Assembly: GCF_000013225.1 (NCBI RefSeq)
Contig: NC_007776.1
Coordinates: 2,548,501 to 2,612,500, forward strand
Direction of reading: 5' to 3'
Length of the DNA stretch: 64,000 bases
Origin: Synechococcus sp. JA-2-3B'a(2-13)
GTDB lineage: Bacteria > Cyanobacteriota > Cyanobacteriia > Thermostichales > Thermostichaceae
Shown here: in pieces, positions 12,350 through 55,092 of the stretch
How the letters are laid out: each line of letters opens with the position of its first letter
Numbering within the stretch: the first letter of the stretch is position 1
Notes under the pieces: generated by a model
The model's input: the letters and a program-made list of their open reading frames with translations, nothing else
Databases searched by the model: none
Told to the model about the DNA's origin: nothing
Translations under genes and position numbers: made by a program

Positions 12350-12621
12350 CTGATACATTCACGCTGAACTCTCCTGAACATGGTTCAGGAAAGAAGCGAT
12401 CGCATCCTGCCTATCTCTGAGCAGGAAGGCGGTATCCCGCAAAGCCCTGAGGAATACCCCCCGAGCGCTTTCCCCCTTCACTTCCCGGCAACCGTTGCGG
12501 TGGACTCAAGGATCAGGGGGAAACTTGGTCTACTATATCCCTCTCAATGACTTTTGCCAAACCGCCTAAAGCTCAGTAAATTCAGCAAAGTTCAGGGTTT
12601 TGGGGGTTAGAGGCATGCTCC
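12350..12621 (+). repeat. 272-bp MITE-like repeat, copy 1
   Basis: This segment recurs at 53426-53697 with the same length and one difference (CTCTCC here, CTCCCC there). The ends carry imperfect inverted repeats of about 19 bp: GCTGAACTCTCCTGAACAT on the left and CCTGAACTTTGCTGAATTT read inward from the right. It has no coding frame of note. It contains one canonical HIP1 octamer (GCGATCGC), which is rare in this window. No target duplication is evident. Confidence 0.85.
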
Positions 12622-12744
12622 CACAGGAGCCGTCGCAAGGGGATCTTGCCGGCAAACGGGAGCGCCGGAAGGGATCCCAAGCAGGCCGGGGACAGCTTTT
12701 ACAATTGGATAAGGTTGGCAACAAGATTGTTGGGGAGCTGAGCC

Positions 12745-32631: not shown

Positions 32632-33556
32632 TTTCGGTTTGGTTTTAGCTAGACCGCCGGGAAGCCCCGCCTTCTGTTAGTGACTAGTGGCTGGTCACTA
32701 TCCACTCACCACTATCCAGGGTGAGGGTCGGGATAAAAGGCGAGGACACGATGCTTCGTCCTTACTGGTGCTATGACCGGCGTAGCAGGATTTTATACGC
32801 TCATCATGAGAACTGCTTACCAGTATCGCTTACGCCCTACTTCTAGCCAAGTTGCTCTGATGGACCAATGGCTAGACTTGTTACGCAAGCAGTACAACTA
32901 CCGCTTGGCAGAGCGCTTTGCGTGGTGGGAACACAATCGCTGTGATATCAATGCTTGTCCCTTAATCTGTCACTTGCCCAAGCTGAAAGACAATCCCGAT
33001 TTCTACTCCCAGAAACGGGATTTGGTGAAGACGAAAGCCCTGTTTCCGCAGTACAGAGCAGTCCATTCGCAAGTCCTGCAAAACTGCATAGAGCGAGTGC
33101 ACAAAGCATTCGACCGCTGGCTGAAGGGTGACGGTAACGGCAAGCGGGCAGGGAAACCCAGATTTAAGGGAGCTGGGCGGTATCGCTTCTTCACTTTCCC
33201 CCCGATGAAACAAGACTGCATTTGCGGGCAGTTTATCCATCTGCCCAAAATCGGTGCTGTTCGGATAATTCAGCACCGTCCTTTGCCTGAGGGCTTTGTG
33301 ATTAAGACCGCTGCCATCACCCGCAAGGCAGACGGGTGGTATGTGACCTTGAGCCTGCAAGATTCGTCCGTCCCTGAGTTTACTCCTGAGCCTGCAACAC
33401 TGGAGAACACGATGGGGATCGACGTGGGACTGGACTCCTTTTTGGTGACCGATGCGGGGGAGTCTGTTCCAGTTCCCCAGTATTACCGCAGAGCCCAAAA
33501 GCGGTTAAAGAGACTGCAGCGGGCAGTGTCTCGCAAGAAGAAAGGGTCAAACCGCC

Positions 33557-39173: not shown

Positions 39174-39204
39174 CGCAACCGCCAAAAGACCGGGTTGGTC
39201 TATC

Positions 39205-39266
39205 TTAGCTAAACTGCCGAGAAGCCCCGCGCTGTACCCGCAGGGTGAGCGTCGGGAGGATGTCAC
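39205..39266 (+). mobile_element. 62-bp IS200/IS605 leftover (copy D)
   Basis: It starts TTAGCTAAACTGCC, continues GAAGCCCCGCGCTG with foldback ACCC-GCA-GGGT, and ends GGAGGATGTCAC. It has only the two ends joined, with no coding DNA. Both ends match copies C and E. It cuts off the 3' half of the ridA pseudogene. Confidence 0.72.
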
Positions 39267-53425: not shown

Positions 53426-53697
53426 CTGATACATTCACGCTGAACTCCCCTGAACATGGTTCAGGAAAGAAGCGATCGCATCCTGCCTATCTCTGAGCAG
53501 GAAGGCGGTATCCCGCAAAGCCCTGAGGAATACCCCCCGAGCGCTTTCCCCCTTCACTTCCCGGCAACCGTTGCGGTGGACTCAAGGATCAGGGGGAAAC
53601 TTGGTCTACTATATCCCTCTCAATGACTTTTGCCAAACCGCCTAAAGCTCAGTAAATTCAGCAAAGTTCAGGGTTTTGGGGGTTAGAGGCATGCTCC
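53426..53697 (+). repeat. 272-bp MITE-like repeat, copy 2
   Basis: It is identical to the repeat at 12350-12621 except for one base. It ends three bases before the stop codon of the vWA gene fragment, so it inserted at the very end of, or just beyond, that gene. The near identity of two copies 41 kb apart points to recent movement or gene conversion. Confidence 0.85.
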
Positions 53698-53700
53698 TAC

Positions 53701-55071
53701 CTAGTTGGTTGGCGTCGGTGTTGGCGTCGGTGTTAGTGTCGGGGTAGAGGCAGGAGTGGGTCGAGGTGTCGGAAAGTCCGTCGGTGCAGGAGGTAGAGGC
53801 ACCGGAATGCGGAGGCGGCAGGGTTGATCCGATTGATCGCCTTCTGGGGCATAGCAAACGCGAATGAGATCTTCCACAAAGCGAAGCTGATTAAAAGTGA
53901 CATACTCCCATCACTGACCCTACAGGTACAGCGTGGGCTTCGCGCTTCATCGGGGAGCTACTGCAAGAACCCTCCACGCGCAGACACGGGATGTCCCACC
54001 GCGTAGCTGTACCAGATTCCGGCAACGCCGTTTTGTACAGCCATGTTGATTATGGCACAGGATATATACGCCTTTCATCCCGACCCTCCTGCTGTTGCAG
54101 AGAGTGCGGGGCTTCCCGGCGGTTTAGCTAAGTTGATCCGCAAACCGTGCCAGCACAAAAGTCCCCTCAGTAGCTGCAGCCAGACGCTGTAACTCCAGAA
54201 GATTCAAATCGACCCCCAACCCAACCACATACACGGTGAGTTTTTGTCCTCGCTCTCTGGCCAAAGTTGTCAGCTCCTGAGTAGCTTGGTTGATGGAGCG
54301 GGTGCTTTCGTTGTCAATCCCATCGGTGAATACCACCAAGCGGCGGTTGAAACGCTCGGTGGGCCGAAAGTCGCTCAAGAAACGCCCGGCTTCTACCGTG
54401 GCATCGTAGAGGGCAGTGTTCCCCCCCGGAACAGCGCGCAAAACGCCTCGTCTCAGCAGCTCTTTGTCGCCGGTGAAGTCCTGCAATAGCTGAGCTGTGC
54501 GCAGAGGCTGCCCCAGGGCTGTAAGGCCAAAACCTGCCCCCCGGTTGTCAAAGCGCAGAATGGCGCCCAGATCCAGGGGTGCAGGGCGAAATTGATCCAA
54601 GAGCCGAAAAACAGCCAGGAAGCGCCGAGATTGGGGATCCAAAACCAGCAAGCTGCCTGAGCCATCCATCAGCACTGCCATGAGCAAAGGCCGCTGAGGC
54701 AGATCCGGCGGGGGGTTCTCGATCCGGGTGGGTGTCAGGGTCAAGGTTACCGGCTGCGGGATCCCTAGCAAATCGGTTACCCGGTTTACCTGCAGGCTGA
54801 CCTGACTGGCAGAGAGCTGGGTTATTGGTTGGGGCGGATCCCCGCCTTGCAAGAGGGCGATGTTGAACTCCATTTCCCCTTGTGTGCCAGAAAAGGAGCG
54901 GGTCAGAGCCCCATTGAACGTCAGGCGAGCTTGGGATCCCACAGCAGACGGATCAATGCCTGTACCGCCGGAAGAGCCACAGCCGACAAGGCAGCTTCCC
55001 ACGAGCACCAGGAGAAGCAGCCAACCAGCTTTTTGGCTTTTTACTTGACCGGGCTGTATTTTTACAGTCAT
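53701..55071 (-). pseudogene. vWA-domain lipoprotein gene split by a small transposon leftover
   Basis: The N-terminal part (55071 to 54131) has a lipoprotein signal (LLLLVLVGSCLVGC), and a vWA domain with the MIDAS motif DGSGS (in LMAVLMDGSGSLLVL), TALYDATVEAG and VVFTDGIDNESTR, up to TFVLARFADQL. There the frame meets a 234-bp element and stops at TAA 54124-54126. Beyond the element the same frame continues FNQLRFVEDLIRVCYAPEGD and ends in a Thr-Pro tail (PTLTPTPTPTPTN, stop at 53701-53703). The two parts rejoin in frame if the element is removed. A shortened protein lacking the Pro-rich tail could still be made and exported. Confidence 0.8.
53897..54130 (-). mobile_element. 234-bp IS200/IS605-derived element (copy E) inside the vWA gene
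   Basis: The left end (on the minus strand) reads TTAGCTAAACCGCC and GGGAAGCCCCGC, with GGGTCGGGATGAAAGGCG further in. The right end reads GCTGTACCTGTAGGGTCAGTG and GGGAGTATGTCAC. These match copies C and D. No tnpB codons remain except a short GGTGGGACATCCCG-like relic, so it is a non-autonomous deletion derivative. Confidence 0.8.
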
Positions 55072-55092
55072 TGCAGCTGCCAGTGCAAGCAT

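Follow-up and report, generated by a model that had tools for sequence, protein, structure and literature searches.

Probable loss of a vWA lipoprotein gene through a deletion fusion and insertion of a miniature IS200/IS605-type element in a hot-spring Synechococcus

We consider it highly probable that the locus described here preserves the decaying remains of a conserved cluster, composed of a vWA lipoprotein gene (gene 1) and the lipoprotein gene that follows it downstream in relatives (gene 2), which has been affected by a deletion fusion of about 930 bp, by insertion of a mini-transposon and by replacement of the 3' end of gene 2, these events being in no set order. Comparison with relatives shows a loss of about 930 bp, by which the vWA gene was fused, behind its codons for ARF, to the C-terminal portion of gene 2 at ADQL, in frame by chance. 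It also shows that a 231-bp element has inserted at TTAG within the gene-2 remnant; the element points the same way as the gene and caused no target duplication. In addition, the gene-2 3' end has been exchanged for a Thr-Pro tail plus a second repeat element. Judged from sequence comparison, the locus represents a gene loss and not a switch.

The window, i.e. the whole stretch of 64,000 nucleotides that was analysed, belongs to a B'-lineage genome consisting of a single contig of 3,046,682 bp (G000). It was compared with four relatives in the genus (G001, G002, G003 and G004/L085) and one more distant relative (L086). G001 is an A-lineage genome of 2,932,766 bp, which we take to be Synechococcus sp. 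JA-3-3Ab (OS-A), the window genome JA-2-3B'a(2-13) presumably being OS-B'; the G002 contig is from the MAG Synechococcus sp. M44_DOE_062. Features of the locus are collected in Table 1.

Table 1. Features of the locus, in window coordinates
Feature	Position	Strand	Remarks
Second repeat element, GAGCATGCCTC...GAATGTATCAG	53426..53696	(-)	about 271 bp; many near-identical copies
Thr-Pro tail and stop	53701..53752	(-)	TAG at 53701-53703
Gene-2 C-terminal coding remnant	53753..53896	(-)	93.75% identical to G002
Non-autonomous IS605-type element, CTAAACCGCC...GGGAGTATGTCAC	53897..54127	(-)	231 bp; from copies, ends and empty sites
Gene-2 bases between joint and element, GCGGATCAACTTAG	54128..54141	(-)	14 bp, ending in target TTAG
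Deletion joint	54141..54142	(-)	last vWA base 54142, first gene-2 base 54141
A-like tract	54142..54405	(-)	264 bp, 263/264 identical to G001; edge at deletion joint
vWA lipoprotein gene, truncated	54142..55092	(-)	from ORF, Pfam VWA and alignment with L084, L085 and L086

Two adjacent genes in the relatives

The first-pass annotation had described a single vWA gene split by the element with its frame preserved. The vWA ORF, the element and the continuation of the same frame behind it are all present, but the flanks correspond to two genes in G001, G002, G003, G004/L085 and L086. The vWA gene of G002 encodes 375 aa and past the window breakpoint reads on as SEVLEAPFANLFPAAIGEHRLQVRVQSSVPLPAGSYLLSGELRVEREGSRFVVPFNDAVLTVGSR, while gene 2 of G002 is a separate gene of 324 aa, whose C-terminal part ...IIRQADQLSFNQLRFVEDLIRVCYAPEGNQSDQPCRLRIPVPLPPAPTDFPTPRPTP... 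is the frame found downstream of the element in the window. The same arrangement occurs in G001, G003, G004/L085 and the more distant L086, and further vWA homologues in the order also extend beyond the window breakpoint. After the element, the window continues as FNQLRFVEDLIRVCYAPEGDQSDQP...TPTPTPTN-stop in the frame of the vWA ORF (in full, FNQLRFVEDLIRVCYAPEGDQSDQPCRLRIPVPLPPAPTDFPTPRPTPASTPTLTPTPTPTPTN and then a stop), and FNQLRFVEDLIRVCYAPEG...TPRPTP is part of the separate downstream lipoprotein gene in relatives. The Thr-Pro frame, whose placement in another gene had been named beforehand as evidence against a split gene, is placed in another gene by G001, G002, G003 and G004.

At the DNA level, the segments of G001 and G002 matching the two flanks are separated by about 930 bp and fall in neighbouring genes, gene 1 reading GCACGGTTTTCTGAAG and gene 2 reading CAAGCGGATCAACTTAGTTTTAATCAGC, while the window has GCACGGTTTGCGGATCAACTTAG, the element and then TTTTAATCAGC. 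The bases missing at the joint amount to 928 bp against G001 and 932 bp against G002, and the vWA codons ending in ARF (54142) directly abut the gene-2 codons for ADQL (54141), in frame. No microhomology was found at the joint, where the flanks are GGTTT/TCTG and CGACAA/GCGG. The reading frame has been kept because the joint is in frame by chance and 231 is divisible by three. One joint in three will be in frame, and the frame then survives insertion of an element whose length is divisible by three; before relatives have been compared, an open frame that spans a small element is therefore not evidence that a gene has been split.

In the window, the Thr-Pro tail and the second repeat element stand in place of the 3' end of gene 2, and the tail (53701..53752) gave no alignment to gene 2 of G002. 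The conserved cluster in relatives consists of the vWA lipoprotein, the second lipoprotein and a long protein (L085 2856-8003, L086 2703-6921). The third gene of L085, located after gene 2, carries a long Thr-Pro ((TP)n) linker; that of G001 is open over a 194-aa stretch only; L086 has a long gene with a similar opening at this place, and the window has the short Thr-Pro tail alone. A derivation of the tail from the linker of the third gene was considered on the basis of a match in G001, which is of low complexity only and does not settle the origin.

The inserted element and the second repeat

The element, initially taken to be 234 bp long, measures 231 bp, and its orientation is that of the disrupted gene. 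Matches to it as a query are found at 22 places in the window genome, including a further full-length copy that is likewise 231 bp long and is 94% identical. For the window copy, an empty site GATCAACTTAGTTTTAATC is present in G001 and G002, and in the case of two more copies the flanks, once joined, match G002 contiguously at 95-96%, with TTAG kept and no duplication. Thus the three copies with empty sites lie directly 3' of a short, constant target, and no target-site duplication accompanied their insertion, the latter point as the first-pass annotation had supposed; TTAG is found at the left flank in most copies.

The window copy has the cleavage sites TTAG and TCAC, and the guides AAAC and GAAG both lie 5' of folded hairpins, although some other copies have a degenerate left guide. 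The corresponding tetranucleotides of IS608, AAAG and GAAT, are also located 5' of hairpins and pair with TTAC and TCAA (PMC5934647); when this rule is applied to TTAG and TCAC, AAAC and GAAG are expected, and both are what the window copy carries. A parental autonomous element is located at about 544.2-546.05 kb of the same genome, with ends (TTAG followed by CTAAACCGCC, and GGGAGTATGTCAC) as in the window copy; it encodes a TnpA of 146 aa (Y1_Tnp, 148 bits, with the HUH motif and tyrosine) and a full-length TnpB of 414 aa. The DNA fold of a 251-nt stretch containing the whole element was not significant (z = -1.0). The IS200/IS605-type identity, already read from the ends in the first-pass annotation, is well supported by this parent and by the hairpins and guides, and the element is an ordinary miniature transposon, a MITE-like IS200/IS605 derivative. 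It would have moved as single-stranded DNA by the parental TnpA acting in trans. Among the literature searched, we have found no paper dedicated to insertion sequences of the window genome.

Genome-wide, the TnpB C-terminal domain is matched 70 times in G000, against only one full-length and one broken TnpA. Elements of about 60 bp with little beyond both ends (TTAG followed by CTAAACTGCC...GAGGATGTCAC) occur at window 39204-39266 (L022) and at L012, and resemble solo hairpins of the same family as the 231-bp element. A second short element type, whose right 143 bp are as in the window element and whose left part is different (gggatacagatacccccacatggtgtatg...), is found elsewhere in the genome (L004-L010).

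In ISDra2, the TnpB guide RNA is encoded at the tnpB 3' end (PMC8612924). The right part of the window element shares a GGTGGG[GA]CAT[TC]CCG block and the terminus with 3' ends of tnpB copies, with a weak common fold, and when element copies and the parent were scanned against Rfam, no guide-RNA family was found, the lone match being 16S rRNA beside another copy. It is conceivable, if rather improbable, that the right end encodes a TnpB guide RNA with the flanking gene sequence TTTTAATCAGCTTCGC as the guide and TTAG as the target motif, so that TnpB acting in trans cuts the excised allele and restores the element; if this were true, the gene disruption would maintain itself and would not be reversible.

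The repeat past the stop, which had been claimed as 272 bp and as a sign that the locus was hit by more than one element, is also real: a 275-nt direct repeat occurs in the window (12350-12624 and 53426-53700) with a mobile unit of about 271 bp, and many copies with 99-100% identity are present in the window genome and G001. It is probably another IS200/IS605 derivative, because shorter matches to its right part are located directly after tnpB (G000 33019-33324).

The truncated product and the origin of the deletion

The vWA ORF starts at 55092, or more likely at the ATG at 55071, and terminates at 54124-54126 on the minus strand, with the C-terminal end ...TFVLARFADQLS-stop, giving a product of 322 or 315 aa. 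The stop TAA comes from the element itself, which cuts a Ser codon (AG/T) and begins with C TAA. In alignment with L084, L085 and L086, the vWA motifs are retained, with a Pfam VWA score of 23.0 bits (slightly below the 23.8 cut-off), and about 60 C-terminal residues of the relatives are missing. In the retained part, lineage-specific changes are 0 nonsynonymous and 6 synonymous, a count that the A-like tract inside the gene also lowers, and there is no frameshift; relaxed selection, looked for by these substitution counts, was not detected there. The absence of nonsynonymous changes indicates that the gene loss is recent or that the truncated protein is still in use, and the decaying state of the locus is inferred from its structure rather than from substitutions. 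The intact vWA protein of a relative, modelled from four sequences, has a mean pLDDT of 52, with confident strands at the N- and C-termini only. Searches with this model gave no match at E <= 0.001 by Foldseek and nothing at Z >= 8 by Z score, and the small beta-sandwich domains CopC and PcoC align weakly across its N- and C-terminal parts (Z about 5), which is only a hint from modelling that both ends might form one domain broken by the truncation.

Two readings in which the locus keeps a function should be weighed against gene loss. The first-pass annotation proposed that precise excision, occurring at some frequency, restores the gene and so acts as an on/off switch for a vWA surface lipoprotein. 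The element ends look intact, a full-length TnpA is available in trans, and joining the flanks in silico gives one open frame of 386 aa; this frame is, however, a chimera of the vWA protein and the gene-2 C-terminal remnant, and since the flanks belong to two genes, excision yields this chimera and not the ancestral gene. The preserved frame is accounted for by the in-frame joint and the element length. The uninterrupted chimera occurs in none of the genomes searched, a set that did not include other genomes of the same species, and the reversible switch has therefore gained no support; an exact search of genome contigs for the junction also gave no match, which carries little weight because near-identical records may be left out there. 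We regard the switch as very improbable, and the recent loss that had been offered as the other option is favoured by the two-gene comparison. That the truncated vWA protein remains functional and selected for, with only a dispensable C-terminus trimmed by the insertion, has a better but still minor chance. The clean substitution record and the kept motifs speak for it, though the loss may be too recent for visible decay; moreover, relatives of 52-62% identity have conserved the lost segment, whose strands are confidently modelled in the intact protein, and the weak beta-sandwich alignments span both terminal parts.

With gene loss as the preferred reading, the cause of the deletion can be sought in the A-like tract. 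The window gene at 54401-55000 shares 94% identity with G002 and 77% with G001; across the tract region, G002 and G001 themselves are about 90% alike, and the best 200-bp identity to G001 outside windows overlapping the tract is 92.5%. Exchange between the A and B' lineages of Synechococcus is frequent and mostly in short blocks (PMC12755884), and in homology-facilitated illegitimate recombination homology on one side is combined with an illegitimate joint on the other, with microhomology of 3-10 bp in most cases (PMC3240628). The coincidence of the tract edge with the deletion joint suggests interspecies recombination as the cause of the deletion, a link that rests on one genome: A / B' DNA exchange, in either direction, may have proceeded through homology within gene 1 at one end and an illegitimate joint at the other. 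The chances are only slightly below even that the 930-bp loss was instead an ordinary, independent deletion, and that the tract meets the joint by chance or once ran into the deleted part. Short interspecies tracts are common in the population (PMC12755884), the joint lacks microhomology, and gene 2 is unusually similar between G001 and G002, so that an exchange from B' to A, formerly extending over the deleted region, is conceivable. Against this, the tract is the sole such stretch in about 5 kb aligned to G001, its edge matches the joint to the base, and the gene-2 remnant past the joint is not A-like, seven sites differing from both G001 and G002. The locus provides a concrete case of an interlineage tract of hot-spring cyanobacteria ending exactly at a gene-destroying deletion; if the link between the two is true, interspecies exchange not only mixes alleles but can also erode genes.

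Relation to known systems

The element resembles the IS605 group (TnpA plus TnpB; IS608, ISDra2) in keeping the target tetranucleotide at the left flank without duplication, in its subterminal hairpins and guide tetranucleotides, and in the presence, in the window genome, of a parent that encodes Y1 TnpA and TnpB. It differs from IS608 and ISDra2 in its length of 231 bp without a transposase gene and in its target, which is TTAG and not TTAC or TTGAT. Like other MITE-like IS200/IS605 derivatives, it has kept both parental ends, has lost the interior and is present in several copies per genome; it differs from these in its particular sequence alone, and sits in a gene fusion by chance.

The foreign-like homologous tract on one side, the novel joint and the deletion of about 1 kb resemble those of homology-facilitated illegitimate recombination (PMC3240628), from which the locus differs in lacking the usual 3-10 bp microhomology and in being observed in one genome. 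A short tract inside a gene that is identical to the other lineage is likewise a feature of A / B' hybridization (PMC12755884), from which the present locus differs in that its tract terminates at a deletion destroying the gene.
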